A DNA stretch of 47,993 nucleotides, taken from positions 1 through 47,993 of the forward strand of contig PBJR01000007.1 in assembly GCA_002721175.1 (NCBI GenBank), read 5' to 3'. The notes below the pieces were generated by a model. That model was not told the origin of the DNA, did no database searches, and worked only from the letters and a program-made list of their open reading frames with translations. This stretch comes from Flavobacteriaceae bacterium. GTDB lineage: Bacteria; Bacteroidota; Bacteroidia; Flavobacteriales; Flavobacteriaceae. Position numbers and translations under genes: made by a program. Shown here piece by piece: positions 23,191 through 43,040 of this stretch (within the stretch, counting starts at the first letter, position 1; each line of letters opens with the position of its first letter).

Positions 23191-23274
23191 GCTGAAGTGG
23201 TGGAATTGGTAGACACGTTGGACTTAAAATCCAATGGCCATTAGGCCGTACGGGTTCAAGTCCCGTCTTCAGTA
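23191..23274 (+). tRNA. tRNA-Leu (anticodon TAA)
   Basis: Acceptor GCTGAAG / CTTCAGT (first pair G-T) with discriminator A. Anticodon stem TTGGA / TCCAA surrounds loop CTTAAAA (TAA at 23225-23227). A long variable arm containing the GGCC-ATTA-GGCC hairpin marks a class II tRNA, and the T-arm is CGGGTTCAAGTCCCG. CCA is not encoded. It is 16 nt after tRNA-Gly, so both come from one transcript. Confidence 0.97.
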
Positions 23275-23275
23275 C

Positions 23276-23306
23276 AAAACCCACAATTTTAATTGTGGGT
23301 TTTTTT
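23276..23306 (+). terminator. Intrinsic terminator after the tRNA pair
   Basis: Perfect inverted repeat AAAACCCACAATT / AATTGTGGGTTTT followed by a run of T to 23306. It begins 1 nt after tRNA-Leu. Confidence 0.9.
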
Positions 23307-23375
23307 GTTTTTAACCATGGTAGTTAAAATGTGTTAAATTTTTAATAAATTTATAGTTAACAAAATATATTAACT

Positions 23376-24479
23376 ATGAAAGATTATTTAAATATGGTCT
23401 TAGATTTTCCTAAGACTATTAATAAAATGCTACCCCAAAACTATTTTAGCGAAATGGTAAACAATTCAGAGAAATCCATTTATGATTGGATTGGCCAAGT
23501 TTTTAGAATATTGGCTTTTGTTTTTTTAGTTTTTATGCTAAGCAATGTAATTGTTGATGGATTTAAATATCTTACGAATGGCTCCAACGGATTCAATGAG
23601 AGCTATGTTGAAGATATTGAATTCGTTGAAGATGATGAAGAAGAAGAAATGGAAGACGAAGGAGAAGAGAATATGATTGACGAATCCTACTACACAATTA
23701 CCCTTTTGAATCCAGATGCAACCGATGACGAGGATGAGTTCGAGTCAAGACAAGAAAAAATTGTTTTGGCGGAAGAAGTATTCGGTCGAGTTAGATATGA
23801 AGATGATTTTTTGGAGGGGTTAGAAGATGATGAGACTCCTGATGAGCTGATATTTAATGTTGGTTACGTTGGAGACGGTTATGAAAGCGACGACCCAGGG
23901 GCATTAGGAATTATTGCTAATATTTTAATGATATTATTATTTTCATATGCTGCTTTTCCATTGTCACAAGTTATATCGCATGCTGGCAATTCAGTAGCTA
24001 AATCTCATGATAATATGATTAAGTTTTTATTCAGAGATCTGGTTCTTGTTGTTATTAGGGCAGCAGGATATATTTTAGGATTAGTTTTACTATTTTCAGC
24101 TTTTGCTGGAGTTATTTCGTTTGTTTTTGACGAATCACTATTTCTACCTGAGATTCCCTTCGTGGAAACCTTCGGTCTAATACTATTATTTCCACTGACA
24201 GCTTTTGCTGGTCTTCTTGGAAGTCTTTTAGATAGTGGTGCTATATTAGAAACCGGATTTGTAAGTGAAGCGCTGAGTTTAATTGATACGCCACAAACCT
24301 TTACAGTTGACGGCTGGTCACTTGATGGACTAAAAACATTATTAACTATGTTTGCTAGTGTCTTAATGGTATTTGTTGTTTTGTTTGTTGCATTACCAAT
24401 TTGGGAATTTATTATTGGTTTAGTCACCGCACTAATTAAGTGGATAAAAGGACCTTACTTTCCCCACAAAGCTCTTTAA
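23376..24479 (+). CDS. Acidic-loop multi-pass membrane protein, family not recognised
   Basis: 367 residues with no family I can name. Predicted hydrophobic segments lie near residues 41-61, 176-196, 224-250, 263-285 and 321-353. Between the first two is a ~110-residue loop that is extremely acidic (EDDEEEEMEDEGEEN near 85-99, plus DATDDEDEFESRQE and DDFLEGLEDDETPDEL). There is no signal peptide or lipobox; the N-terminus is amphipathic. The acidic loop could bind cations or basic proteins, but this is only a guess. The gene is a stand-alone unit: a tRNA terminator precedes it and its own terminator follows 4 nt after the stop. Confidence 0.75.
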   Translation: MKDYLNMVLDFPKTINKMLPQNYFSEMVNNSEKSIYDWIGQVFRILAFVFLVFMLSNVIVDGFKYLTNGSNGFNESYVEDIEFVEDDEEEEMEDEGEENMIDESYYTITLLNPDATDDEDEFESRQEKIVLAEEVFGRVRYEDDFLEGLEDDETPDELIFNVGYVGDGYESDDPGALGIIANILMILLFSYAAFPLSQVISHAGNSVAKSHDNMIKFLFRDLVLVVIRAAGYILGLVLLFSAFAGVISFVFDESLFLPEIPFVETFGLILLFPLTAFAGLLGSLLDSGAILETGFVSEALSLIDTPQTFTVDGWSLDGLKTLLTMFASVLMVFVVLFVALPIWEFIIGLVTALIKWIKGPYFPHKAL

Positions 24480-24482
24480 ATT

Positions 24483-24518
24483 AAAAAAGCCCATAACAAT
24501 TTGATGTGGGCTTTTTTT
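24483..24518 (+). terminator. Intrinsic terminator after the acidic membrane protein
   Basis: AAAAAAGCCCA pairs with TGGGCTTTTTT across a 13-nt loop, ending in a T run. It starts 4 nt after the stop codon, so the gene is transcribed alone. Confidence 0.85.
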
Positions 24519-24547
24519 AAAAAACACTTAACTAGTTGTAAAATTAT

Positions 24548-24575
24548 CCTCAGGATTAACAACTTAATCTTGAGG
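24548..24575. repeat. 12-bp hairpin abutting the GH13 truncation point
   Basis: CCTCAGGATTAA, loop CAAC, TTAATCTTGAGG: all 12 positions pair (11 Watson-Crick and one G-T). There is no T tract on either side, so it is not a normal terminator. Recognisable amylase sequence begins at the very next bases. It may be a mobile-element or repeat end, or the scar of the deletion; the sequence alone does not tell which. Confidence 0.6.
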
Positions 24576-25458
24576 TGGAATTCGACAAGACACATACCCT
24601 TACGCCGATAAAGAATTTATGAGCAATTGGGCGGGTGCAATAATGAATGAATATCCCAATTTTTCAATCGTTGGGGAAGAGTGGAGTTTTAATCCCCTTT
24701 TAATTGGATATTGGCAAAATGATAAAAATTCAAAGCATGGGTATGTTTCAAATTTAACTTCGACAATGGATTTTGCAATGTTGGATAATATAAAAAAAGC
24801 AGTAAGTCAAAAGGAATCATGGAATAAAGGATTGATTAAACTATATGAGGGCCTTGCAAATGATTTTCATTATCCAAATCCGGAAGCAATAATGGTCATG
24901 ATGGATAATCACGACATGAGTCGAATTTATACTCAACTAAATGGAAATTTGACTCAAACAAAAATGGCGATGAGTATAATATTGATGATACCACGAGTCC
25001 CTCAAATATACTATGGTACCGAGATATTAATGGATGATTTTGAAAGGCCTGGGGACCACGGACTTATTAGAACTGATTTTCCTGGTGGTTGGCCAAACGA
25101 TGAGGTCAATGCGTTTTCTGGAAAAGGATTGAATCAAAGTCAAAAGGACATGCAACAATTTTTAAAAAAGTTTTTAAATTTTAGAAAGAACAGCAAAGCC
25201 ATTCACAGCGGTAGTACAATCCATTTTGCTCCAAAGGAAGGAGTGTATTTTTTATTTAGAAAAAAAGACGATGAAATTGTGTTTTTAATATTAAACAAAA
25301 ATGATAACCTTACATCAATTGATTTGGAGAGATTTGATGAACTGAATTTAGAGGGTAAAACTTTTCAAAATATATTTAATGATGAATATTTTATATGGAA
25401 CAAAACACTTAATTTGTCAGAACCAGGAACATATATCTTTAATTTAATTAATAACTAA
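24574..25458 (+). pseudogene. 5'-truncated GH13 alpha-amylase family enzyme (SusA/neopullulanase-like)
   Basis: Only the C-terminal half of a GH13 enzyme is present. The readable frame opens after a stop at 24571 with GIRQDTYPYADKEF, which is conserved region II with the nucleophile Asp (codon 24589-24591). It continues with the acid/base Glu in IVGEEW, region IV in MMDNHDMSR, and a C-terminal beta domain ending at 25458. The signal peptide, N-terminal domain and first half of the TIM barrel (region I) are missing. The first ATG (24619) lies after the nucleophile, so a protein from it cannot be active. Full-length relatives are roughly 600 residues. The remaining reading frame is otherwise intact, so the loss looks recent. 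Homologues cut alpha-glucans in starch-type uptake loci. Confidence 0.8.
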
Positions 25459-25461
25459 GTT

Positions 25462-26424
25462 GTGCTAAGATTTAATTTTATATTAATAATAATTATTTGT
25501 ATTAATACACTTGAAGCTTCTATTTGTAAAGCTGATTCGATTAAGAAATATAAATTAAATCGATCTGAAAAAGTTCAAGGCTTAATAGAAAGGATAGAAA
25601 AATTTCCTTCAAAAATTGTGACTCCAAGGAATATTGATATTTGGTTTCCCTTAGATTTTGATAAATCTAAACGTTATGATGTTTTGTATGTTCAAGATGG
25701 TCAAATGCTATTCAACAGTGATAGAACCTGGAATGGGTTGGAGTGGGGAATGGATGAGCATATGACAAGATTAATGAATAATGATCAAATCAAGGAAACT
25801 ATAGTTGTTGGTATTTGGAGTATTTACAGAGACAGAAATGCGAATTATTTTCCTAAAAAAATTTTTGAATCACTTGATGATGATAGTAAAGCTGCAATGC
25901 AGCGTATTTGTAAGAAAAGAAAACAGTCCACTTTTATTAATTCAGATCGATACCTGAAGTTCATTGTCACAGAGCTAAAACCATATGTTGATTTCAATTA
26001 TCCAACGAAACCTGGTTTGGAAAACACACATATAATGGGTTCAAGTAAAGGAGCTTTACTTTCAATATACGCTTTATGCGAGTATCCTGAAATATTTGGA
26101 TCGGCAGCCTGTTTGTCGACTCATTGGACTGGAACTTATTCAGGTTCAGAATCAAATCAAATACCCTATGTAATATTTGATTATTTGATGGTCAATTTGC
26201 CGTCTGCTGGAACTCATAAAATATATTTTGATTATGGTACTGAAACGCTGGATGCTAAATATTTACCATATCAAGATTTAGTTAACATATTTTTTGACTA
26301 TAAATCTTATGATGATCAATCAATGATTAATCTCAGATTTGATGGCCATGAGCATAATGAAAAGTTTTGGAACGCTAGACTAGAAAAACCTCTTTTGTTC
26401 ATATTAAAGGAATCAGATGAATAA
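25462..26424 (+). CDS. Secreted alpha/beta-hydrolase (putative esterase family, Esterase D/Fes-like)
   Basis: 320 residues: signal peptide (LIIIICINTLEAS), then the esterase fold with the IWFPLDFDKSKRYDVLYVQD strand set, nucleophile elbow GSSKGALLS and the late His in RFDGHEHNEKFWNARL. It resembles PF00756-type esterases that act on decorated carbohydrates or siderophores. The start is GTG, 3 nt after the stop of the GH13 remnant; an in-frame stop just upstream excludes a longer form. The two genes probably belonged to one alpha-glucan operon, so this esterase may have lost its main partner. Substrate unknown. Confidence 0.78.
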   Translation: MLRFNFILIIIICINTLEASICKADSIKKYKLNRSEKVQGLIERIEKFPSKIVTPRNIDIWFPLDFDKSKRYDVLYVQDGQMLFNSDRTWNGLEWGMDEHMTRLMNNDQIKETIVVGIWSIYRDRNANYFPKKIFESLDDDSKAAMQRICKKRKQSTFINSDRYLKFIVTELKPYVDFNYPTKPGLENTHIMGSSKGALLSIYALCEYPEIFGSAACLSTHWTGTYSGSESNQIPYVIFDYLMVNLPSAGTHKIYFDYGTETLDAKYLPYQDLVNIFFDYKSYDDQSMINLRFDGHEHNEKFWNARLEKPLLFILKESDE

Positions 26425-26509
26425 AGTACTCAGTTTATTGTTTATTTTATCTGTTTTTATTCTTTTGATCGATATAGTCTGGGATAGATTTAAAAAAAAA
26501 GAAAGATGA
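26417..26509 (+). CDS. Possible 30-residue single-pass membrane microprotein
   Basis: A short ATG frame overlaps the esterase stop by 8 nt and encodes a hydrophobic helix (LSLLFILSVFILLIDIVW) followed by a basic tail RFKKKER. The pattern is that of a small inner-membrane protein with the positive end in the cytoplasm. The overlapping start would allow translational coupling. It is too short for any family call and may be chance. Confidence 0.4.
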   Translation: MNKVLSLLFILSVFILLIDIVWDRFKKKER

Positions 26510-30672: not shown

Positions 30673-31026
30673 ATGAGAAAGATAACAATCTTATTATTGA
30701 CTTTATTTTCTGGAATATCACATGTCATTTATGGCTTGATGTCAATTGTTCTTCCTTTTTATGACGAGGAATTTATCAGATATGGATTTGAAAATTTTAG
30801 GTATCTTATAGGATCTTCTCAGATTATTTTTGGTGTTTGTTTAATTTTGGGTCTTTACTTCAATAAGTTAAAATTGATTTCTTCATTATTCTTAGCGCTG
30901 TTAATGGGTGGAGCTTTGGGTACTCGTATTTATATTGGGGATGATTTTTTACAATCTCTTCCTGCTTTATCATATTTGTTGATTAATTTATTTATATTTA
31001 TTGAGTCAAAAAATCTTATAAAATGA
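30673..31026 (+). CDS. Small DoxX-like four-helix membrane protein
   Basis: 117 residues with four hydrophobic helices (FSGISHVIYGLMSIVLPF, YLIGSSQIIFGVCLILGLYF, LISSLFLALLMGGAL, LSYLLINLFIFI). The pattern resembles small DoxX/DoxD-like proteins. The ATGA at its end overlaps the ATG of the next gene, a paralogous-looking DoxX protein, so the two may act as a heteromer. Function unknown. Confidence 0.65.
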   Translation: MRKITILLLTLFSGISHVIYGLMSIVLPFYDEEFIRYGFENFRYLIGSSQIIFGVCLILGLYFNKLKLISSLFLALLMGGALGTRIYIGDDFLQSLPALSYLLINLFIFIESKNLIK

Positions 31027-31403
31027 AATATTTAAAGCAAATTTTAATATTAACTGTCTCAATAGTTGTATTAAGCGCCTGGACATGGAGATTAAATATG
31101 GCAACAATTTTCAGAGGGGAAGATGCTACAACTATGCTTGATGAGTTTCTTATTTACGGCTTAAATGAAAATATAATGTATATCATAGGTGGATTAAAAA
31201 TATTAGCAGCTTTAGGTCTTTTATTAGGCTTAATTTATAAGAAATTTATAATACCCTGCGCGTTAGTAATTGCAACATTAATGTTAGGAGCAGTATTTAT
31301 GCATTTCAAAGTTTCAGATGAAATCCATAAATTTTTTCCTTCAGCATTAATGTTAATATGTTCACTTTCAATCATTTTTATTTCCAAAAGAGTTACCGCT
31401 TAG
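31023..31403 (+). CDS. DoxX-like membrane protein
   Basis: 126 residues, four predicted helices, with the DoxX-type segment MYIIGGLKILAALGLLLGL and a loop before LVIATLMLGAVFMHFKVSDE. It shares the 4-nt ATGA overlap with the preceding DoxX-like gene. Members of this superfamily include quinol-oxidase accessory proteins and uncharacterised membrane proteins, so no role is claimed here. Followed 80 nt later by an alpha/beta hydrolase. Confidence 0.7.
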   Translation: MKYLKQILILTVSIVVLSAWTWRLNMATIFRGEDATTMLDEFLIYGLNENIMYIIGGLKILAALGLLLGLIYKKFIIPCALVIATLMLGAVFMHFKVSDEIHKFFPSALMLICSLSIIFISKRVTA

Positions 31404-31483
31404 ATTTGTTAAAAACGTAGCTTTTGAGGCGAATCAAAAGTTCACTATTTGCCCTAACAGTCTTTAGTAACAGGCCTTAATAA

Positions 31484-32464
31484 ATGAGAAATTTTCTTAT
31501 TACATCTTTTTTGTGCTCTAACTTCTTTCTAAGTGCTCAAAGCGCAATTACAAAAGATTCAATAGCAAATGTGTTTTTAAAAGCGACATACGATGTTGAT
31601 ATAGAAACAGATTTAATTTATGGATTTGGTTTGGGTCATGATTCTTTTAAAATGACAAATCCAAGAAAAATACCCCTAAAGCTAGACGTATATACTCCTA
31701 AAAATGATTTTAAAAACAGGCCAATTTTGGTTCTAATTCATGGCGGAGGTTTTAAAAATGGCAGTAAAAGTAAACCCCCATTTATTGAACTTTCAAATTT
31801 TTTTAGTAGTAGAGGCTGGGTTGTTTTCAATATTAATTATCGATTAACGAAAGATTATGGGAAAATTCCCGGTGAATGGAATGATTTTGTTGATGCTAAT
31901 TCTCCACTAGAAAGAAGGAATCAACATAAAGCAGTCTATCCTGCAATTCGGGACGCTAAGGCAGCTGTTAGGTGGATCGTAGCAAATAAAAATAAGTTTG
32001 GAGTAAATCCAAATTATATTACCGTTGGAGGTGGTTCTGCGGGGGCTGTTTCTGCAATAGCTGTGGGTATTTCGGAAAATGATGATTATAAAAGTGAACT
32101 TAGCATCAAAGAGGACAATACTCTTTTAACAACTAATTTAAATATTAGTTTTAAAGTCAAAACGATTTTAGATTTTTGGGGAAGCAAATCAGCTATTGAT
32201 GCTATAAATATTTTGTACAAAAAAGAATTGTTTAATAAAAATAATCCTGCAATTTTTATAGCTCACGGAACAGATGATGATGTAGTTCCATACAATCGAG
32301 CTTTAGAGATAGAAGGAGAGTATAAAAAAACAGGAGCTCCATACATTATGTATTCTTTAGACAAAAAGGGGCACGGACCTTGGGGTTACGCCGAGAAGGG
32401 ATTAGGCTTGGGTGATTTAGCTTTAAGATTTATTGTAAAAAAACAGGCCTTGGAGGTGTATTAA
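31484..32464 (+). CDS. Secreted alpha/beta hydrolase (carboxylesterase / BD-FAE-like)
   Basis: 326 residues. Signal peptide ending near FLSAQ. Oxyanion motif LIHGGGFKNGS, nucleophile elbow GGGSAGAVS, Asp in AHGTDDDVVPY and His in KKGHGPWGY give a complete serine-hydrolase triad. This arrangement is that of hormone-sensitive-lipase/BD-FAE-type esterases, many of which remove acyl groups from polysaccharides or lipids. It stands alone 80 nt after the DoxX pair. The exact substrate cannot be read from the sequence. Confidence 0.85.
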   Translation: MRNFLITSFLCSNFFLSAQSAITKDSIANVFLKATYDVDIETDLIYGFGLGHDSFKMTNPRKIPLKLDVYTPKNDFKNRPILVLIHGGGFKNGSKSKPPFIELSNFFSSRGWVVFNINYRLTKDYGKIPGEWNDFVDANSPLERRNQHKAVYPAIRDAKAAVRWIVANKNKFGVNPNYITVGGGSAGAVSAIAVGISENDDYKSELSIKEDNTLLTTNLNISFKVKTILDFWGSKSAIDAINILYKKELFNKNNPAIFIAHGTDDDVVPYNRALEIEGEYKKTGAPYIMYSLDKKGHGPWGYAEKGLGLGDLALRFIVKKQALEVY

Positions 32465-32518
32465 ATGCGACTCCGCTAGCCTGTAGGTATTCGATTAAAC
32501 TAAATATTTTTTTATAGT

Positions 32519-32980
32519 TTAATGTTTATAAGGGAATGAAGAGTGGTGTAAATCTATTTTTAATTCATCACCAACCAGTTTATAACCAAATGTATATTCT
32601 ACTTTCGCTTCATTGCCATCAAGGTCAGTAAAAAAATAATTACCCATTGCGATAGCTCTTTTTTCTTCAAGAATTATTCCTGCATTTTCGAATCTTACTT
32701 TAGTCCATGGTTGAATTGCAAAACCTTTGTCCTCGTCACATGCTCTATCATCTCCTGCAATAAAATAAGATAGGGCTTGAGATTTAGATGGTCTAAATTG
32801 CTCAAATTCACATTTAGTTGGCTTAAAAATAACAGATCCTAATCCAAATGCATATCTTTCATCAAGAAATGAGCTAGCAAAAGCCTCACATTCAGATCTA
32901 CTATGCTTTAGCGAACCAATTTTTACTACTCCGCTTCCCCATTTTTCTTGTGCTTCTAAAACTTGGTCTTTTGTAATCAT
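32519..32980 (-). CDS. NTF2/SnoaL-like fold protein
   Basis: 153 residues without signal peptide. The C-terminal half has the alternating strands and the YTFGYKLVGDELKIDLHHSS ending of CaMKII-association-domain/SnoaL-like proteins of the NTF2 superfamily. Homologues of this type in marine bacteria are sometimes mislabelled phosphoribosyl-AMP cyclohydrolase; none of that enzyme's zinc-site motifs is visible here. Function unknown, cytosolic by default. It converges on the carboxylesterase. Confidence 0.6.
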   Translation of the reverse strand: MITKDQVLEAQEKWGSGVVKIGSLKHSRSECEAFASSFLDERYAFGLGSVIFKPTKCEFEQFRPSKSQALSYFIAGDDRACDEDKGFAIQPWTKVRFENAGIILEEKRAIAMGNYFFTDLDGNEAKVEYTFGYKLVGDELKIDLHHSSFPYKH

Positions 32981-33054
32981 GATTTTAATTTAATTTGTGT
33001 TAAAATTTGGCATGCAAGATATTTAATTTTTATTAAAAATTATAATATTTTTTA

Positions 33055-33729
33055 TCAATTCTCTGCTATTAAATTGGTGTTAAAAATTATACCAAATTGT
33101 AAAAATGTTTTAGCTATTGATTGTGTTTCTTGCCTCAACAAACCAAATTGAAAATCTATATTATTGGCATATTTATAACCAACACCTCCATATAGTCTAT
33201 TACGATCAAAAAAAGTTTTTTCTCCATTTACAAAAAGTTCATTGTAAATACCCAAATATGTCGTGCCTTTTTCAATTTTTTGGCTATTTAAGGGCAAAAA
33301 CAGCATCAACCTATATCGAAAACGAGTTTTAAAGTTTTCCTCTATGAATCTTTGCTCGAAACGGTACCTATGCTCAAATTTTATCCTACCCAAAAAACTT
33401 GTAGTTAAGAATTGTTGCCATATCCTATGTTCTTCAGTTTCTGGACTTGTTCTTTCAGATTCATATAAATGGTTACCAATATGTGCATATCCCAGGGTAG
33501 CAAATGCATTTGGTTTAAAGTGATAATTTAGCCCTGTTCTTAGTAAAAGCTGTTCAATGTTTGTTGGACTTATAGTGTGATTTCTGTATTGTACTTCCGT
33601 GTGCAGGCTGAATTTTTCATTGATTTTATTAGTGCCAAAATACATTAACCAATTTCCCTTATCATTTTGAGCACTGAGGGAAAGAAAAGAAAGCGATGAA
33701 ATTAATGCAATGTTTATTACTGTTCTCAT
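33055..33729 (-). CDS. DUF2490 outer-membrane beta-barrel protein
   Basis: 224 residues from the ATG at 33729, which places a clear signal peptide first (RTVINIALISSLSFLSLSAQ). An upstream in-frame ATG would add 17 residues and is less likely. The body has the DUF2490 pattern: NWLMYFGTNKINEKFSLHTE, EVQYRNHTI, FEHRYRFEQRFIE and RFRYRLML, alternating beta strands of a small porin-like barrel. Function unknown. Divergent from the SusC gene. Confidence 0.85.
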   Translation of the reverse strand: MRTVINIALISSLSFLSLSAQNDKGNWLMYFGTNKINEKFSLHTEVQYRNHTISPTNIEQLLLRTGLNYHFKPNAFATLGYAHIGNHLYESERTSPETEEHRIWQQFLTTSFLGRIKFEHRYRFEQRFIEENFKTRFRYRLMLFLPLNSQKIEKGTTYLGIYNELFVNGEKTFFDRNRLYGGVGYKYANNIDFQFGLLRQETQSIAKTFLQFGIIFNTNLIAEN

Positions 33730-33747
33730 GGATTCATATTTTGATAG

Positions 33748-33785
33748 CAAATATAAAAAAGGAAATATTAATTTGTCCATTCCAA
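33748..33785 (-). promoter_or_regulatory. Candidate promoter for the DUF2490 gene
   Basis: On the minus strand TATATTTG (33755-33748) is an exact TAnnTTTG box. A TTG at 33785-33783 is 27 nt upstream, longer than usual. No equally good box points towards the SusC gene in the same intergenic region. Confidence 0.4.
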
Positions 33786-33862
33786 TTGATATAAGTTTAC
33801 TATATTTATATGCTCAAATTTTTATGAAAAATTTAACACAGTTTAATTACAAACTAAATTTT

Positions 33863-36800
33863 ATGAAAAGAATAATTTATTCCTTTTTTATAACTACACT
33901 GTGCACTTCTTTTGCCTTTTCACAAACATTTTCAGTTTCAGGAACAGTCAAATCAAGCGCTGACAATATGCCTTTACCAGGTGTAAATATTTTAGTGAAA
34001 AATACAACCAATGGTACAATTACTGATTTTGATGGAGCTTTCAATTTAAGCAGCGTTTCATCCAGTTCCATATTGGTTTTTACCTATGTTGGTTATAAAA
34101 CTCAAGAAATACCCGCATCGTCTCAAATGATGGTTTTGTTAGTAGAAGACAATGAATCTTTAGATGAAGTTATTTTAATTGGCTATGGTTCTAAAAATAA
34201 AAAAGATTTAACGGGGTCCGTTTCAATGGTTAAGTCAGAAACAATTGAAAAACTTAAACCAGTTGACGTGGCACAGGCTTTGCAAGGTAGAGCTTCAGGG
34301 GTGTCAGTGACGACATCATCTGGATCACCTGGTAGTGGTTTTAGGGTTTTGGTAAGAGGTATTAGTAGTAATTCTGACAATGATCCACTTGTAGTGGTTG
34401 ACGGATACATAGCATCCTTGAACAGTATTAATCCAGACGACATTGAGTCTTTAACTGTATTAAAGGATGCTCAGGCAGCAATTTATGGTATTGAGGGAGC
34501 GAATGGGGTTATTTTGGTGACTACAAAAAAAGGGTCTAAAAATTCATCACCAAAGGTTTCTTACAATGTTTACTCAGGCACACAAGAAACCTCAAAAAAA
34601 CTTTCTTTATTAAATAACATAGAATATGCAGCAATTATAAACGAGAGTTATGCGGCAAATGGGCAAACTTTACCATATCCCAACCTCAATGAGCTGGGGA
34701 ATAATACAAATTGGCAAGACAATTTATTTAGTTCAGCTTGGATGACAAATCATAATGTTAGCCTTTCAGGAGGGACTGAAAGTGTAACCTACTACTTAGG
34801 CGCTTCTCATTTAACTCAAGACGGAATTATAGCAAAGGACAAATCTAATTTTGTACGAGATAATGTTAAGTTAAGTTTATCTGTGGACATAAATGATAAG
34901 CTAAAATCTTCACTAAATCTTAACTATTTTGCGAATAAAAGAAAAACTATCAATGAATCTGGATTAGGATCTGTCCTGTTCAATGCCATCAGTTATTCGC
35001 CTTTATTTAGTTTAAATCAAGAGGATTTAGGAGGATTGTTTGGTAATGAAATTATAAATCCATTTTCGCAGATTAGAGATACCTATAACTCTTACTTTGG
35101 TAATAGTGTTGAAGGTAACTTTCAATTAGATTACAAAGTTTATGACGGCTTAACTGCCACGACAAGGATTGGTTTCAAATCCTACAGCGACAAAGGAAAA
35201 TCTTTTTCACCTATTGTGAATTATGGTGCAGGTAAGGTTTTTAACACTGATAGAAGTACTGTGAGTCAAAATAAGCAACAGTATAATTCATACACGTGGG
35301 ACACATTTATTAATTATAAGAACACTTTTTTTGAGAACCATAATGCTGAGTTAACATTTGGTATGGCTGTAACTAATGATTGGGGTGATGGTTTGTTTGC
35401 TACAGGTTTTGATGTTCCTAATAATTCGTGGGAATTTGCAGATATTGCCTTAACTACAGGAACAAGCGATGCAAGGGAAACAGGTTCTTATACATATGAC
35501 AATAGACTATTGTCTTATTTTACCAGATTTGAATATGATTATAAAGGTAAATACTTGTTATCTGCAATGTTAAGGCGTGATGCTTCTTCTGCATTTGACA
35601 GGGATTATAGAGTTGATCATTTTAATTCTATAACAGCAGGGTGGAAAGTTTCTGACGAAGAATTCTTTCAAAATATTGATTTTATAAATTTTTTGAAATT
35701 AAGAGCAAGTTATGGTACTTTGGGTAATCTTGTTGGTAATGATTTGTATAGAGCCACTTTAAGTGGAGAAGCTACTTATGTTTTTGATAATTTGCTCACA
35801 AATGGAACAGCTTTAGGCCCACTTCCTAACGCAGTTGCTTCTTGGGAAACTGCTGAGAAATTGGATATAGGGCTTGATTTACAGCTTTTTGATCGCAAGT
35901 TAGATATTGTAGCAGACTATTTTTCTGAGGACAGAATTGATCTTCTCATTCCTGGTTTACCTTTTTCAGGTATTTTAGGGGCTTCGGCTCCCGGATCAGG
36001 GACTCCTGTTGTAAATGCTGGTACAACCAGAACAAAAGGATTTGAACTAATGATTAATTATAAAGATCAAGTTAATAAAGACCTTTCTTATCAACTTGGC
36101 TACAACATAACTCAACTTGACGGCGAGGTGATTTCAATTAACTCTGATGTAGCTTTGGAAGGTGGATCATTTGGAATTGGTCAACTTGCCCCATCTCGCA
36201 TGGAAGTTGGTCAACCTATAGGTTACTTTTATGGACTTAAAACTGACGGAATTTTTCAAAGTCAGTCTGAGGTTGATTCACATCCCTCGCAATCTGGTTT
36301 AGGTAATACTGCACAACCAGGTGACTTACGTTTTGTTGATGTAAATTCTGATGGTATAATTGATGCCAATGACAGAACTTTCATTGGTAAGCCTCTCCCA
36401 GATTATATTATGGGCTTCAATTTGGCGATTGAATACAGAGATTTTGATTTTTCTGCATATGCTTATGCTGAACTTGGGAAGGATATGGTTCGTAATTATG
36501 AAAGAGATCAACCCAATGTAAATAGACTTGACTATTATCTTGACAGATGGACTGGGCCCGGTACAAGCAATGAGGTTCCAAGGGCTACGGTTGGGGCAAC
36601 TTCGAACAAGCTTTTTTCAGATTTTTTTGTCGAAGATGCATCATTCCTGCGAATTCAGAATATTCAGCTCGGATATACTTTACCGCTTGTTGAGAATACA
36701 TTTATTTCAAAGTTTAGAGCTTATATTTCAGTTAATAACCCAATTACTTTCTCTAAGTATAAGGGGTTTGATCCTGCAGCAACTACTGGGAATGCAATTG

Positions 36801-36871
36801 GAGGAGGAATTGATCCGGGGTTTTACCCAGTCACAAGACAATTTTTATTAGGATTTAATATATCATTTTAA
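33863..36871 (+). CDS. SusC-like TonB-dependent outer-membrane transporter
   Basis: 1002 residues from the ATG at 33863, where a signal peptide begins (KRIIYSFFITTLCTSFAFSQ); the 51 in-frame codons upstream are not signal-like. Residues ~24-95 form the carboxypeptidase-regulatory-like domain (FSVSGTVKSSADNMPLPGVN). The SusC hallmark LDEVILIGYGSKNKKDLTGS at ~100-119 leads into the plug (~115-230), followed by a large barrel ending in FLLGFNISF with terminal Phe. It imports oligosaccharides captured by its SusD partner, encoded 11 nt downstream. First gene of a PUL with two GH16 enzymes, so beta-1,3-glucan (laminarin) oligosaccharides are the likely cargo. Confidence 0.95.
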   Translation: MKRIIYSFFITTLCTSFAFSQTFSVSGTVKSSADNMPLPGVNILVKNTTNGTITDFDGAFNLSSVSSSSILVFTYVGYKTQEIPASSQMMVLLVEDNESLDEVILIGYGSKNKKDLTGSVSMVKSETIEKLKPVDVAQALQGRASGVSVTTSSGSPGSGFRVLVRGISSNSDNDPLVVVDGYIASLNSINPDDIESLTVLKDAQAAIYGIEGANGVILVTTKKGSKNSSPKVSYNVYSGTQETSKKLSLLNNIEYAAIINESYAANGQTLPYPNLNELGNNTNWQDNLFSSAWMTNHNVSLSGGTESVTYYLGASHLTQDGIIAKDKSNFVRDNVKLSLSVDINDKLKSSLNLNYFANKRKTINESGLGSVLFNAISYSPLFSLNQEDLGGLFGNEIINPFSQIRDTYNSYFGNSVEGNFQLDYKVYDGLTATTRIGFKSYSDKGKSFSPIVNYGAGKVFNTDRSTVSQNKQQYNSYTWDTFINYKNTFFENHNAELTFGMAVTNDWGDGLFATGFDVPNNSWEFADIALTTGTSDARETGSYTYDNRLLSYFTRFEYDYKGKYLLSAMLRRDASSAFDRDYRVDHFNSITAGWKVSDEEFFQNIDFINFLKLRASYGTLGNLVGNDLYRATLSGEATYVFDNLLTNGTALGPLPNAVASWETAEKLDIGLDLQLFDRKLDIVADYFSEDRIDLLIPGLPFSGILGASAPGSGTPVVNAGTTRTKGFELMINYKDQVNKDLSYQLGYNITQLDGEVISINSDVALEGGSFGIGQLAPSRMEVGQPIGYFYGLKTDGIFQSQSEVDSHPSQSGLGNTAQPGDLRFVDVNSDGIIDANDRTFIGKPLPDYIMGFNLAIEYRDFDFSAYAYAELGKDMVRNYERDQPNVNRLDYYLDRWTGPGTSNEVPRATVGATSNKLFSDFFVEDASFLRIQNIQLGYTLPLVENTFISKFRAYISVNNPITFSKYKGFDPAATTGNAIGGGIDPGFYPVTRQFLLGFNISF

Positions 36872-36882
36872 AATAAGTAATT

Positions 36883-38388
36883 ATGAAAATTAACAATAAA
36901 CACATATTAATAGCAATCTTTGGATTATCCGTGTCATTAAGTTTCTTATCGTGTGAAGATGAGTATCTCGATCAGGAGCAAAATTATTTAATTGACTCTG
37001 AAAACTATTTTAATTCTGAGGATGATTATTATTTAGCGCTTGTTGGAGCTTACGATCTTCTTCAAGCTACCTATGTTAATAATCTTCTAGGTGAAATTGC
37101 TTCTGATAATACCTTTTGTGGTGGTGAAAGTGCTACTGATGTTATTGGTTTTCAGCAAATTGATGACATGACTCACACTCCGGTAAACAGCAATCTAAGA
37201 GATGTTTGGAATTGGATGTTTGCTGGAATAAAAAGAGTAAATTATTTCTTAGAGTTTCAGGACAAAACAAACTTTCCAGGCCGAGAAAGTATGGTAGCTG
37301 AGGTTCGTTTTTTAAGGGCTTATTTTCATTTTGAACTTGTAAAATGGTTTGGTGGAATTCCAATTAAAGAATATGAAAACGCGCTTCTAGGTCAAGGTAA
37401 AAGATTCTCTCCTGGTGATGAAACTTTAGTGCCTAGATATTCGGTTGATGAAGTATATGCCTTAATCGAAACTGATTTAATTCACGCTGTAAATAACCTT
37501 GAATATTCTGCTCCTCAAATAGGTAGAGTCACCAAGGGTGCAGCACAAGCACTTTTGGGAAAGGCTTATTTATATCAAGACAAATTTAATGAAGCCGCAA
37601 ATGTTTTGGAAAACCTAATCAACAATGGACCTTACCAGTTATCTGCCAATTATGCTGAAATTTTTGAAAATCAAGGAGAAAACGGCGTAGGATCAGTGTT
37701 TGAAGTTCAGTACACAGATGGAGAGGGTGCTGGATTTGGTTGTTTACAATGTAGCGAAGGAAATGTTGCTGTTGGGTTCATGGGAATTAGAAATCATACT
37801 GGACCTGTATATGATTCAGGCTATAGCTTTAATGTTCCAGTTCAAGAAGCTTATGAAGCTTATTCCCCAGGAGATTTAAGGCGAGATGTGGCAATTCTTG
37901 ATATAGTAGCTTGGGCAAGTTCAACAGGTGCTGGATACGTTGAAGGGTATGAGCATACTGGATATTATAATCGAAAATATTTGCCTAGAAAAGGTGATCA
38001 AAACATTGGAGATCAAAATCTAACAAATCCAAATAATTATAGATCTATCCGTTATGCAGATGTATTGTTAATGGCAGCTGAAGCTTTGAATCGTGGAGGT
38101 ATTGATGACATAAGAGCACAGGAATACTTGAATTTAGTAAGAGAGCGTGCCTTTGGTAATAGCAATAATAACATTACATTGAGTGGATCTTCTTTAACTG
38201 ATGCCATTTATGAAGAAAGGCGATTGGAGCTTATGGGAGAAGGTCATCGCTTTTTTGATTTAGTTAGAACTGGAAGAGCTTCCGATGCTATTGATGGTTT
38301 TATTTCTGGTAAACACGATGTCTTTCCAATTCCTTTTGAAGAAATTCAGTTTTCTGCAGGTAATTGGAACCAAAATCCAAATTATTAA
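36883..38388 (+). CDS. SusD/RagB-family surface glycan-binding lipoprotein
   Basis: 501 residues. Signal peptide with lipobox LSFLSC (Cys24), then the SusD opening DEYLDQEQNYL and TPR-like helices (ALVGAYDLLQ, EVRFLRAYFHFELVKWFGGIP), ending with YEERRLELMGEGHRFFDLVRTGRA and VFPIPFEEIQ. SusD caps the SusC barrel and binds the glycan at the cell surface. Located between SusC (11 nt) and the first modular lipoprotein (9 nt), so one operon. Confidence 0.95.
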   Translation: MKINNKHILIAIFGLSVSLSFLSCEDEYLDQEQNYLIDSENYFNSEDDYYLALVGAYDLLQATYVNNLLGEIASDNTFCGGESATDVIGFQQIDDMTHTPVNSNLRDVWNWMFAGIKRVNYFLEFQDKTNFPGRESMVAEVRFLRAYFHFELVKWFGGIPIKEYENALLGQGKRFSPGDETLVPRYSVDEVYALIETDLIHAVNNLEYSAPQIGRVTKGAAQALLGKAYLYQDKFNEAANVLENLINNGPYQLSANYAEIFENQGENGVGSVFEVQYTDGEGAGFGCLQCSEGNVAVGFMGIRNHTGPVYDSGYSFNVPVQEAYEAYSPGDLRRDVAILDIVAWASSTGAGYVEGYEHTGYYNRKYLPRKGDQNIGDQNLTNPNNYRSIRYADVLLMAAEALNRGGIDDIRAQEYLNLVRERAFGNSNNNITLSGSSLTDAIYEERRLELMGEGHRFFDLVRTGRASDAIDGFISGKHDVFPIPFEEIQFSAGNWNQNPNY

Positions 38389-38397
38389 AAAAAAACA

Positions 38398-40005
38398 ATG
38401 ATGAATATGATAAGATATACAATTGGTTTATGTTTGATTGCAATGACAGTTTTTACATGTGCTGATGACGAAAAAAATATTGATTTTCTCAACAGCGCTT
38501 CAGCACCTTCTGAGCTTGATATGCAATTTCATGTTACACAGGACAATACAGGATTAGTAACAATAACCCCCTTGGGAGAAGGAGTAGTAGTTTTTGATAT
38601 TGATTTTGGAGATGGAACAGAGGAACCTGTTTCTATCGAAAATGGAGAAAGTGTAACTCATGTCTATGAGGAAGGAACCTATACAGTTTCTGCAACAGCA
38701 TATGGGGTTACGGGTCTTTCTTCTACAATAAGTAAAGAATTGGTTGTATCATTTCAGGCCCCAACAAATATTTCAGTAAATATTGAAAATGATCCTTTTG
38801 TGTCAAAGCAAGTTAATGTGACTGTAAGTGCTGATTTTGCTGTATACTTTGAGGTTTACTCCGGGGAGACAGGAGTCACAGACCCTGTTACAGCAAATAT
38901 TGGTGAAACAGCCATTGTTCAGTACAATGAAGCTGGATTTTATGATATTACAATAGTAGTTTTAGGTGCTGCCATTGAAACTCTAACTTATGTTGAGGAA
39001 AATTATGAAGTAACAGAAATTCTTGCACCGACTGAATCTGCTCCAACTCCTCAACCTAGACAACCAGAAGATGTAGTTTCTATTTTCAGTGATGCTTATT
39101 CCAATGTTACACTGGATGAACTTCCTACAAGCTGGTCTTCTAGTGATTTTAATGCAACAATTATTGGATCTGATAACGTATGGCACCTTAGTAATATTGA
39201 TTTTGTAGGTATTGTTACTAATTATTCTCAAGGTATTGATCTTTCGCAGATGGAAATGATGCACATCGACTATTGGGTGCCAGACGGTGTTAGCAATGAA
39301 TTAATGGTTAAAATTGTTAATACCATTGATGGCGGAGAGGACATCGAGTCGCTAGGCAATACAGTCAGCGGTTCATGGCAATCTGTCGATTTGGATATGA
39401 CTGGTTTTGATGGTGGGGATTTGGCTAACAAACAAAAGATAACTCAGCTATTAATTGACTCAGATGGAATTGCGTCAAATGTTTACATAGATAATTTTTA
39501 TTTTTACAGAGCACCATCTGAGCCTTTAACATCTCCTTTAACGGGCACATGGCAAGTAGCGCCAGAAGCGGGATCGTTGGGTGTTGGTCCAACACAGGGA
39601 GCGACTAATTGGTGGTCGATTGATGCGTCTGGTGTTTCTGAAAGAGCTTGCTATTTTGATGACACCTATGTTTTTGGTACCGATGGTAGTTTTACTAATG
39701 TTTTAGGAGAGGAGACATGGCTCGAGGGTTGGCAAGCTGGTTTTGATGGTTGCGGTACCCCCGTTGCTCCACATGATGGATCCAATCCAGCAACATATAC
39801 TTTTGATGAATCTTCAGGAACTATTACTATTGTTGGTGAAGGAGCCTATATTGGTTTACCAAAAGCGCATAATGGTGGTGAAGACGGAAATCCAGTTAAT
39901 GATACCATTACGTATTTAGTAGAGTTTGTTGATAATAATACAATAATTGTTGATATAGAAGCTGGTTCAGGAGTTTGGTGGAGATATCATTTAGTAAAAA
40001 ATTAA
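38398..40005 (+). CDS. Modular surface glycan-binding lipoprotein (PKD plus CBM-like domains)
   Basis: 535 residues. Lipobox VFTC with Cys21; PKD domain ~38-118 (DIDFGDGTEEPVSIENGES); second PKD-like domain ~119-205; CBM-like beta-sandwich ~224-371 (MMHIDYWVPDGVSNELMVKI, VYIDNFYFYRAP); and a C-terminal domain ~379-535 rich in Trp (LTGTWQVAPEAGSLGVGP, NWWSIDA, WWRYHLVKN). No glycosidase catalytic motif is visible. Position and layout fit the SusE-type protein of a laminarin PUL: it should hold the polysaccharide at the surface before GH16 cutting. The C-terminal domain appears related to that of the next gene. Confidence 0.85.
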   Translation: MMNMIRYTIGLCLIAMTVFTCADDEKNIDFLNSASAPSELDMQFHVTQDNTGLVTITPLGEGVVVFDIDFGDGTEEPVSIENGESVTHVYEEGTYTVSATAYGVTGLSSTISKELVVSFQAPTNISVNIENDPFVSKQVNVTVSADFAVYFEVYSGETGVTDPVTANIGETAIVQYNEAGFYDITIVVLGAAIETLTYVEENYEVTEILAPTESAPTPQPRQPEDVVSIFSDAYSNVTLDELPTSWSSSDFNATIIGSDNVWHLSNIDFVGIVTNYSQGIDLSQMEMMHIDYWVPDGVSNELMVKIVNTIDGGEDIESLGNTVSGSWQSVDLDMTGFDGGDLANKQKITQLLIDSDGIASNVYIDNFYFYRAPSEPLTSPLTGTWQVAPEAGSLGVGPTQGATNWWSIDASGVSERACYFDDTYVFGTDGSFTNVLGEETWLEGWQAGFDGCGTPVAPHDGSNPATYTFDESSGTITIVGEGAYIGLPKAHNGGEDGNPVNDTITYLVEFVDNNTIIVDIEAGSGVWWRYHLVKN

Positions 40006-40015
40006 ATTTATAATT

Positions 40016-40897
40016 ATGAAAAATTTAAAATATTTATCATTTCTGACTATTTTTCTGTTATTTTCTGCTTGTGAAGAGGATAACTACGAATTTGGTCCGA
40101 TAACTTCTCCCACTAATTTGCAAGTCAATGTTGAAATAGTTGGATCTAGCAGTGAAAATCCAAATGGTGACGGGACTGGTGTAGTGTATTTCACCGCTTC
40201 TGCAGAAAATGCAATTTCTTATGAATTTATTATAGATGGAGAGTCAATTGCGGTAACAACTTCAGGAATTTTAGAGCATACGTTCTACACTGTTGGAGTA
40301 AATTCTTACGAAGTTATTGTCATTGCAAGTGGTACTGCTGGTAATTCTACTTCAACTGCACTTTTAGTTGAAGTCTTAGCTACTTACGAACCTCCAGCTG
40401 ATCTTGTTGAAGTTCTTACTGGCGGAAGTTCCAAAACATGGCGTGTGAAATCAGATGTGCAAAATCATTTCGGCTTGGGTCCTCCAGGAGGTCTAATCCC
40501 ATGCGAGTGGTATGGCGCCGGTCCTGAAGAGAAAACAGGAGTTGGAACATACGATGATCGTTGGATTATTAATTCAGATGGAACTATTAATCACGTGACA
40601 AATGGAACTATTTTTGGGAGAACAGCACAAGTCCATGCAGATTTAGGAAATAATGGAACGGGGTCAACTGACGGAGCTGATATACTGAATTACGAGTATG
40701 CAGATTATACTGAAAGCTGGGTAATAACAGACCCTGGACAAATTTCTATTAATCTTAGTGGAAATATGTTCTTTACTTATTATACCGGGGGAGATCATGT
40801 TTATGAAATTTGGGACTACAATGACAATGAATTATATTTAAAAACATTGGACGGTGCCGCTGAATTTACTTGGTGGTTTATTTTGGTGTCTGATTAA
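40016..40897 (+). CDS. Second modular surface lipoprotein of the PUL (PKD-like plus Trp-rich C-terminal domain)
   Basis: 293 residues. Lipobox LFSAC (Cys19). A PKD-like domain at ~31-121 has the segment NGDGTGVVYFTASAENAISY, which closely resembles one in the following GH16 protein. The C-terminal domain (~129-293) has SKTWRVKSDVQNHFGLGPPG, TYDDRWIINSDGTINHV and FTWWFILVSD, related in pattern to the C-terminus of the preceding gene. No catalytic motif, so I read it as a carbohydrate-binding protein on the cell surface. Spacing of 10 nt on each side. Confidence 0.82.
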   Translation: MKNLKYLSFLTIFLLFSACEEDNYEFGPITSPTNLQVNVEIVGSSSENPNGDGTGVVYFTASAENAISYEFIIDGESIAVTTSGILEHTFYTVGVNSYEVIVIASGTAGNSTSTALLVEVLATYEPPADLVEVLTGGSSKTWRVKSDVQNHFGLGPPGGLIPCEWYGAGPEEKTGVGTYDDRWIINSDGTINHVTNGTIFGRTAQVHADLGNNGTGSTDGADILNYEYADYTESWVITDPGQISINLSGNMFFTYYTGGDHVYEIWDYNDNELYLKTLDGAAEFTWWFILVSD

Positions 40898-40907
40898 ATA
40901 GAATTTT

Positions 40908-42239
40908 ATGCAGAAAAAAATTGGCCTAAATATATTATTCCTATTATCATCTTTGACTTGTATTATTTCTTGTTCTTCTGGTGGAGATTCTTCATCAAAC
41001 AGCCAACAAAATGATGTTGTTTATAAATTTTTGGCATGTTCAGAAAATACTCAAGAACTTTATTTTGATCAAACTCAGTTTGATCAAAATTATGGAAGTC
41101 CGAATACAAGTTCTAATCTTAACTGGGGTAGCGATGATGGTTGTTATTTTTTTGATAGTACAATTACCCAACCTGCAACCAATTTATCAATAAGTGAAGT
41201 TTCGTCTATAAATAACTTTGAGGGATGTGATTGTAATGGCGTTTCAAACTTAATTGTAAATGTTACTATACAAGGCCAAGACAATGAAAATGAATATGGA
41301 GATGGTTCAGGTGTCTTTTTTGGCTCAGCTTCAGCGGATAACGCAGTAAATTATGGATTTAGAATTGGTAATACGGGAGATGAAACACAAAATTCTGATG
41401 GAAATTTTTCATTCACGCTTACTGAGCAAGGTTTAAATCAATTCCCATTTTACGTATATGCTTACTCTGAAGACGGAACGTCAATTTCTAAAATTATAAA
41501 TCTTTCTATTTATGTTGAAGGTAATGGCGGTTCTGGAAACAACGATGTTCTTGTATGGTTTGATGACTTTGATGGTACTGGGCCTGTAGATAGCTCTAAA
41601 TGGACAACTGAGACTGGCGGAGGTGGTTGGGGAAATCAAGAAGTACAAATATATACATCAAGCTCAAACAATGTGAGGAGAGAAGCTGGCATTCTAAAAA
41701 TTAAAGTTATCAAGGGGTCTGATGGGAACTTTACTTCAGCACGCATAAAGACCCAAGATAAATTTGAGTTTAAGTATGGTCGTGTTGAAATTCGAGCAAA
41801 GTTGCCTTCTGTACAGGGCAGTTGGCCAGCTTTGTGGATGTTAGGTGCTAACTACCCTGAAGTTGGTTGGCCTCAATGTGGTGAAATTGATATAATGGAA
41901 CAGTTTCAAAATAAATCAAAAGTTCAATCTACTCTACATTGGAAATTAGCCAACGGCAATAGAGCAGAGTACGGATTAGATGTAACCAATACAACTTCTA
42001 CAGATTTTCATGTGTATGCAATGGAATGGACTTCGTCAAGTATTAGAACTTACCTAGATGGTAATGAATTTTTCTCGATGAATATCAATGGCGCGGGGCC
42101 ATATTTTCCTTTTAATGAAGATTTTTTCTTCATTTTTAATGTGGCGATGGGGGGTACGAATGGGGGTGAAATTGATCCCAACTTGAACGAGGGTTACATT
42201 GATGCTATGGAGGTCGACTATATTAGGGTTTATCAATAG
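40908..42239 (+). CDS. GH16 endo-beta-glucanase (laminarinase-type), lipoprotein with PKD-like domain
   Basis: 443 residues. Lipobox IISC (Cys22) followed by a Ser/Gly linker, then a PKD-like domain (~114-204) and a GH16 catalytic domain (~212-443). The catalytic signature is CGEIDIMEQ with nucleophile Glu326, Asp328 and acid/base Glu331. WPALWMLGANYPEVGWPQ upstream and FFFIFNVAMGG downstream match the laminarinase subgroup. Expected to cut beta-1,3(1,4)-glucans at the cell surface into oligosaccharides for SusC/D. Substrate is inferred from family and PUL context. Confidence 0.92.
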   Translation: MQKKIGLNILFLLSSLTCIISCSSGGDSSSNSQQNDVVYKFLACSENTQELYFDQTQFDQNYGSPNTSSNLNWGSDDGCYFFDSTITQPATNLSISEVSSINNFEGCDCNGVSNLIVNVTIQGQDNENEYGDGSGVFFGSASADNAVNYGFRIGNTGDETQNSDGNFSFTLTEQGLNQFPFYVYAYSEDGTSISKIINLSIYVEGNGGSGNNDVLVWFDDFDGTGPVDSSKWTTETGGGGWGNQEVQIYTSSSNNVRREAGILKIKVIKGSDGNFTSARIKTQDKFEFKYGRVEIRAKLPSVQGSWPALWMLGANYPEVGWPQCGEIDIMEQFQNKSKVQSTLHWKLANGNRAEYGLDVTNTTSTDFHVYAMEWTSSSIRTYLDGNEFFSMNINGAGPYFPFNEDFFFIFNVAMGGTNGGEIDPNLNEGYIDAMEVDYIRVYQ

Positions 42240-42263
42240 TTGTTTGTAATGTAATTTTGAATA

Positions 42264-43040
42264 TTGATTATCATTAGAAAAATATCCTTCTTTTTATTTT
42301 TTTTAATTCAAATTACTGAGTCTTTAAAAAGTCAAGAATCATTGATTTTTTTTGATGATTTCAGTAATTCTTCTGTTGATTTAAATTATTGGAATTATGA
42401 ATTAGGAGATGGATGCCCTGAACTTTGTGGGTGGGGTAATCTAGAATCTCAAATATATACTAAAAACAATATTTTAAATAAAAACAATAAATTAATAATT
42501 AAGGCCACTAAACAAGATCAGACATATTTTTCTGGTCGATTAAACACTAAAGGTAAAATAGAATTTCGATACGGGATCGTTGAAGTAAGAGCAAAATTAC
42601 CAAAGGGGAAAGGTGTTTGGCCAGCTATTTGGATGTTGGGATTCGATATTGATGAAATTCCTTGGCCAGCTTGCGGTGAAATTGATATTATGGAATATGT
42701 TGGTAAGAATCCAAGTGAAATTCATACAACCGTTCATACAAGTGATAGTTACGGTGATTCAAAAAATACCAAGGTCATAAATTTAAAAAATATTGAAAAT
42801 GATTTTCATATTTATTCAATAGATTGGAACGAAAATCGAATAAATTTTTTAATTGACAACAATATTGTTTACAGGTTTTCTCCAGACACAAAAACAGATG
42901 AAATTTGGCCTTTTGACAAGCCTTTTTATCTAATTTTAAATTTAGCAATTGGTGGAAGATTCGGAGGATTTGAAATTGATGATAGTATATTTCCTCAGGA
43001 GTTTATAATTGACTATGTTAAAGTTTATAAGCGAAATTAG
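42264..43040 (+). CDS. GH16 endo-beta-glucanase (laminarinase-type), single domain
   Basis: 258 residues. A Sec signal peptide without lipobox (FFLFFLIQITESLKSQ) suggests a soluble or periplasmic enzyme. Catalytic signature CGEIDIMEYVG with Glu139, Asp141 and Glu144, and the laminarinase-type WPAIWMLGFDIDEIPWPA plus LILNLAIGGRFGGFE. The start is TTG at 42264: the upstream frame closes at 42258 and no ATG occurs before the catalytic core. It is similar in sequence to the preceding GH16 domain, so a paralogue with different localisation. Its TAG overlaps the convergent kdtA stop by TTAG. Confidence 0.9.
   Translation: MIIIRKISFFLFFLIQITESLKSQESLIFFDDFSNSSVDLNYWNYELGDGCPELCGWGNLESQIYTKNNILNKNNKLIIKATKQDQTYFSGRLNTKGKIEFRYGIVEVRAKLPKGKGVWPAIWMLGFDIDEIPWPACGEIDIMEYVGKNPSEIHTTVHTSDSYGDSKNTKVINLKNIENDFHIYSIDWNENRINFLIDNNIVYRFSPDTKTDEIWPFDKPFYLILNLAIGGRFGGFEIDDSIFPQEFIIDYVKVYKRN

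Follow-up and report, generated by a model that had tools for sequence, protein, structure and literature searches.

The hairpin at positions 24548 to 24575 of contig PBJR01000007.1 (47,993 nt, from assembly GCA_002721175.1 of a Flavobacteriaceae bacterium; hereafter, the window) belongs to a family of recurring terminators that follow tRNA genes and border small inserted units in small-genome Flavobacteriaceae. In the window, it lies directly against the surviving half of an amylase gene of glycoside hydrolase family 13 (GH13). Taken as a whole, our results make it probable that the hairpin is a tRNA terminator displaced at a small integrative unit, and that a deletion of about 16 kb in a starch-utilization locus then ended at its base. 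The window's own genome (G000) is a draft assembly of 27 contigs (1.67 Mb, 87% complete), which we compared within a set of 11 genomes of the same genus and with G323 and G043, which represent other genera.

The hairpin and its family

24548 to 24575, forward strand: hairpin of the family TATCCYCAAGAATAA-N4-TTATTTTTGRGG, with the T-rich tail missing

The window hairpin has a 12-bp stem and the loop CAAC. A first-pass annotation of this DNA had placed the stem and loop correctly and had called the stem fully paired, which is true only if G-U is counted, because the stem consists of 11 Watson-Crick pairs and one G-T (24553 with 24570). The fold (-14.5 kcal/mol, z -3.57) was equalled by 3 of 200 shuffles. 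At up to three mismatches, the 1.67-Mb genome has no second copy of the whole hairpin, and the stem pattern with a free loop has no other site in the window (mean of 0.00 over 100 shuffles). Yet copies of the family are found in relatives. A degenerate form of the pattern is present in 10 of the 11 genus genomes and the reversed-pattern control in none, which bears out the earlier suggestion of a small palindromic repeat family.

Across 35 loci scanned at up to four mismatches, we recovered 44 hairpin copies. Thirteen sit 3 to 8 nt from the end of a tRNA or transfer-messenger RNA (tmRNA) called by ARAGORN, with four of the 13 serving the opposite strand, and 24 bear one of four end motifs at 20 or more of 28 positions, on either side. 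The other seven comprise the window copy (17/28), one with a weak motif (15/28), one truncated at the end of its contig, and four beside longer tRNA- or tmRNA-like 3' ends that were judged by eye and have no ARAGORN call. The alignment and tail counts rest on 41 copies, after exclusion of L116:3701, which a contig end truncates, and of L117 and L120, which may be shifted by one base. Among the 34 distinct sequences of this set, 97.1% of stem cells are paired, and changes on both sides of a pair number 15 compared with 3.6 in shuffles. The copies share a sequence and a covarying stem, as a hairpin family of the genus should, and the window hairpin carries one full pair swap (A-U to U-A) relative to the others.

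Where the window copy stands apart is in its tail. Within the 16 nt after the stem, it has 3 T residues and the other 40 aligned copies have 6 to 13; it is the sole tail-less copy among the 41 and does not show the stem followed by a T-run that defines an intrinsic (rho-independent) terminator. Rfam returned only two tRNAs above threshold, along with two leader matches below it. Beyond the genus, a family-wide pattern scan matched 19 of 397 genomes. The reversed control matched 3 genomes and several single matches resembled chance, and we therefore kept only small genomes with repeated or motif-flanked matches. Viral contigs gave no match in four exact-pattern scans, which covered the hairpin and three of the four end motifs (all but motif T).

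The end motifs are each about 28 nt long. Motif M ends in GTAC, as tRNA-Leu does, motif G follows tRNA-Leu(CAA), and the ends of motifs A and T resemble those of tRNA-Arg(ACG) and tmRNA, respectively; it is mainly the last 4 to 6 bases that the motifs and tRNAs have in common. On its own, motif M was found at 7 places in 4 of the 11 genus genomes and in 5 of the 397 genomes sampled from the family, two of which belong to the window's genus, with no match in either control. At 11 of 12 distinct motif-M places, the 40 nt that follow rank in the top 2% of their locus for folding. End-motif scores are partly circular, because the motifs were derived from the flanks of these same copies. On the opposite side of the 41 hairpins, the motif score is at most 15, save for one copy with 26 (L220). 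There, in L220:1-110, the hairpin is flanked by a Leu-type end motif and, on the opposite strand, by a tmRNA-type motif, as would be the case if both sides held a site. Motif T recurs with the same terminator in several copies (L111, L122-L124, L220, and L221), and tmRNA therefore seems to be an additional anchor.

A probable inserted unit behind tRNA-Leu(TAA)

23191 to 23275, forward strand: tRNA-Leu(TAA) (ARAGORN), the anchor of the insertion hotspot, whose last bases, GTAC, are the apparent junction
23276 to 24541, forward strand: inserted unit of about 1266 bp with terminator, cargo gene, and degenerate end motif, delimited against G199; the right edge is inferred
23276 to 23303, forward strand: left-end terminator of the unit, immediately 3' of tRNA-Leu(TAA) (fold of 23276-23310, z -3.24)
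23376 to 24479, forward strand: cargo gene of 367 amino acids (aa), apparently membrane-bound by eye
24514 to 24541, forward strand: degenerate unit-end motif, 17/28 to motif M and in register with the hairpin

The order MutS, tRNA-Gly, tRNA-Leu(TAA) is kept in 8 of the 11 genomes, including G000, and in the other three the contig ends in or before the tRNAs. By eye, the DNA 3' of tRNA-Leu(TAA) differs in the seven genomes that can be read beyond 2 nt. When four relatives were tracked for 10 to 20 kb, G202 rejoined the window at genes 30673-33780, G207 and G206 rejoined it at 33055, and G199 did not rejoin it within the stretch followed. Variable cargo behind a conserved tRNA is the arrangement of a tRNA-anchored additive cassette. 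In G199 (L168), about 120 bp directly 3' of tRNA-Leu(TAA) recur, as judged by eye, behind motif M about 12 kb further on.

G199 carries a unit homologous to that of the window at a second tRNA-Leu gene, where 1376 bp lie between tRNA-Leu(CAA) and the hairpin. The cargo genes of the two units show 70% identity, and the distance from the cargo stop codon to the hairpin's TATCC is 65 nt in both genomes. The site is occupied in G199 and empty in G203 and G323, which read tRNA-Leu(CAA)-GTAC-hairpin; in G043, MutS and tRNA-Leu(TAA) are followed directly by the hairpin. On the basis of the sites in G199, G203, and G043, together with the in-register 17/28 motif, the window hairpin is therefore most likely the terminator that tRNA-Leu(TAA) formerly had, which the unit displaced and which now stands at the edge of the cassette. 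The first-pass annotation had considered an excised mobile element. The hairpin does border a unit that looks mobile, but this unit remains in place to the left of the hairpin (gene 23376-24479). The cargo gene of the unit matched no Pfam, PHROGs, or NCBIfam family at the cut-offs applied. A score of 17 to motif M is reached by 80 of 95926 window positions and by 7 of 20000 mononucleotide shuffles; if any of four motifs and six spacings is allowed, 56 of 13696 sampled positions reach it.

Units composed of terminator, cargo, and end motif, 0.6 to 1.4 kb in length, are stacked behind tRNA-Leu in relatives, including another genus. In G323, three units lie behind tRNA-Leu(CAA), measuring 794, 1404, and 1136 bp and all ending in motif G. 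The homologous site of G203 has a single unit of 615 bp, and ARAGORN did not call the tRNA-Leu(CAA) that precedes it. The cargo includes a GH10 enzyme and a laminin-G-like protein, as well as proteins that match nothing in Pfam, of which some look lipoprotein-like by eye. A 3738-bp contig of G203 (C87, L116) has identical 69-bp ends, which fits a circle or a tandem array, and holds two units, one with the GH10 gene and one with the laminin-G-like gene and a second protein. Comparisons between sites suggest that the units can be excised and integrated.

It could be argued that the hairpin is the lineage's common tRNA terminator, which spread with tRNA ends and at which a deletion ended by chance, with no mobility of cassettes. 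Its tail-bearing terminator shape and covarying stem agree with this explanation, as does the fact that many copies adjoin tRNAs. Nevertheless, the end motifs are matched at 27 to 28 of 28 positions in different genera and beside differing neighbour genes, and the stacked units and the occupied and empty states of one site also speak against a plain terminator. We regard this explanation as quite unlikely.

The truncated amylase and the starch locus

24574 to 24575, forward strand: junction, GG common to the hairpin arm and the GH13 gene
24574 to 25458, forward strand: C-terminal half of a SusA-like GH13 gene with a Cyc-maltodext_C domain; the N-terminal half is missing
25462 to 26424, forward strand: putative esterase, which follows GH13 in the starch locus of relatives
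26417 to 26460, forward strand: possible start of a GH31-like gene, the remainder lost (short resemblance, by eye)

The amylase gene is broken at the base of the hairpin stem. Its open frame (24574-25458) runs for 294 aa without a stop, with a first ATG at 24619, and full-length homologues have about 640 aa, leaving about 349 residues missing; the N-terminal half is gone and the rest of the frame is open, as had been proposed from the sequence alone. The codons of GIRQDTYPY begin at 24577, two bases after the hairpin ends, as had been described. DNA matches from four same-genus genomes to the GH13 part start at 24574, 24574, 24575, and 24577, and the GH13 homology therefore overlaps the stem by GG, the only bases that a direct comparison shows in both. 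Alignment to full-length relatives places the break at the hairpin (24574-24577) rather than tens of bases away.

What remains does not cover a complete catalytic barrel of the SusA-like GH13 type, with the Pfam Alpha-amylase match spanning only positions 217-361 of 446. The fragment is the sole Alpha-amylase match in its assembly, and a search of that assembly, which is 87% complete, did not recover the missing half at any other position (the top match had 17 bits and 25% identity). Its rate of nonsynonymous change (dN) to Kordia is 0.253, which is not above that of intact genes (0.254-0.283), and the cut therefore looks recent. With dN not elevated, we rejected decay of the fragment by relaxed selection.

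The starch locus of four relatives (G207, G046, G204, and G206) forms a single conserved block, placed at four different chromosomal sites (L062-L065, flanks L222-L228). The flanks that we fetched have no common neighbour gene save distant epimerase-like (24-25%) and SusC-like (29%) matches, with the right flank in G204 ending at a contig end. In G206, the left edge of the locus is directly behind tRNA-Leu(TAG), in the same orientation as in the window, and about 16 kb separate this tRNA from the base that matches the window break; in G207, the right edge adjoins tRNA-Arg(TCG). In these two of the four genomes, the locus lies beside the 3' end of a tRNA. The observed gene order runs through what we take to be GH65, GH13, esterase, and GH31. 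The amylase piece and the esterase of the window are remnants of this locus.

A deletion of about 16 kb that ended at the hairpin base best explains the truncation of the GH13 gene. At first, the hairpin would have been an intrinsic terminator directly behind tRNA-Leu(TAA). A small integrative unit, consisting of a terminator, one to three cargo genes, and an end motif of about 28 nt that imitates a tRNA 3' end, would then have entered between the tRNA 3' end and the terminator, probably through site-specific recombination, and moved the hairpin about 1.27 kb off. The whole starch-utilization locus would have entered the same tRNA hotspot to the right of the hairpin. Finally, a deletion from the hairpin base to the middle of the GH13 gene, by way of a 2-bp GG microhomology, would have taken the T-tail of the terminator together with the left part of the locus. 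The idea of a deletion hotspot, also raised earlier, is compatible with a break no more than 2 bp from the stem base, but there is one such case, and the other 40 copies keep their T-rich tail.

The same joint might have arisen in another way. The GH13-esterase piece could be the cargo of a next unit, captured as a fragment from a starch locus elsewhere, with the joint made when the unit was formed. Relatives have the starch locus at other sites, and the joint falls at a leading terminator, where cargo would start. However, each of the other 40 aligned copies keeps its T-rich tail, so that a captured fragment ought to begin after the tail. In addition, our scan of the window saw no end motif downstream of the esterase, although the scan was strict and missed the window's degenerate motif too. 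We consider capture unlikely. An assembly artefact that misjoined two pieces at the hairpin would be in keeping with a draft of 27 contigs and with the several relatives whose contigs stop near a hairpin. Yet the hairpin is single-copy in the genome, and an overlap of 2 bp is far under the usual word lengths of assembly, which makes a misjoin very unlikely.

Several observations weigh against the proposed displacement and deletion. The cargo gene is present in only 2 of the 11 genus genomes (G000 and G199), the window's own end motif is weak (17/28), the proposed crossover shares few bases (GTAC), and the twelfth motif-M place (G203:C26) is not well-folding. Within the genus, to which the search was confined, we could link no recombinase to the units: the only two Phage_integrase matches of G000 are XerC/D-like, and of the seven in G199, the nearest lies 59 kb from the three sites compared. 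No tRNA was called near the starch locus of G046 and G204 in the stretch read, and an intact starch locus at tRNA-Leu(TAA) was found in no genome read. Furthermore, the junction comes from a draft assembly.

Elsewhere in the window, positions 33710-43040 hold a SusC/SusD-like locus with two GH16-like genes, named by eye and perhaps for laminarin. A candidate repeat, D5, at 26713 falls within a coding gene, and we regard it as a chance occurrence.

Relation to known systems

Our study raises the possibility, which we put forward tentatively and hold to be somewhat doubtful, of an undescribed cassette system of small-genome Flavobacteriaceae on the 3' ends of tRNA and tmRNA genes. Units of about 0.6 to 2.4 kb without their own recombinase may be moved in trans by some recombinase, each with a leading terminator that restores termination of the tRNA and a conserved end site that mimics it. 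Cargo would include secreted enzymes, larger blocks such as the starch locus would use the same hotspots, and the leading hairpin could serve as a cut point, too. The ways in which aquatic bacteria with small genomes acquire and shed genes are still under study. With the end motifs, the terminator rule, and the empty and occupied site, pattern searches can list the units, the tRNAs that they target can be predicted, and a search for the recombinase becomes possible. Our findings also point to a way in which genes of the starch locus could arrive, relocate, and degenerate behind tRNA genes. In the text available to a literature search that left subscription papers mostly outside its scope, we found no flavobacterial counterpart of tRNA-anchored cassettes.

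Some features recall well-described systems. The starch/maltose polysaccharide utilization locus with its SusA-like GH13 has the same gene order, of which the window keeps only half of GH13 and the esterase. Integron gene cassettes consist of a gene and an end site and are stacked behind a fixed anchor. The units described here are likewise genes with end sites in a stack behind an anchor, but the anchor is a tRNA. If the hairpins were integron attC sites, or alternatively transposon ends or palindromes of the repetitive extragenic palindrome (REP) type, cassette-like arrays and palindromes would be accounted for. However, the attC core GTTRRRY is absent from the motif strand at the six unit ends scanned, with one opposite-strand match in the window. 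The integron-integrase models TIGR02249 and NF011946 were passed by none of seven recombinases; the broad model NF040815, whose description also names integron integrase, was passed by two XerD-type recombinases, and transposases were outside this search. We consider this family of explanations extremely improbable.

Tycheposons of Prochlorococcus and other bacteria are described as elements of 4-200 kb with a tyrosine recombinase (PMC10872708, PMC11389934). They resemble the present units as cargo elements of marine bacteria anchored at tRNA genes. The present units, unlike tycheposons, are 0.6 to 1.4 kb long and linked to no recombinase, and Pfam found no tyrosine recombinase among the cargo proteins tested, which were part of all cargo. 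Additive flexible genomic islands at tRNA genes are known from "Ca. Actinomarinales" and from Methylophilaceae (fGI-2) (PMC7771536, PMC10872708). In these islands, too, small cassettes are added at tRNAs of streamlined aquatic bacteria and bear repeats at their ends, and those of the Actinomarinales are shared across genera. What sets the flavobacterial units apart is an end motif that is a separate conserved sequence, shares mainly the last few bases of the tRNA, and leads into a terminator.
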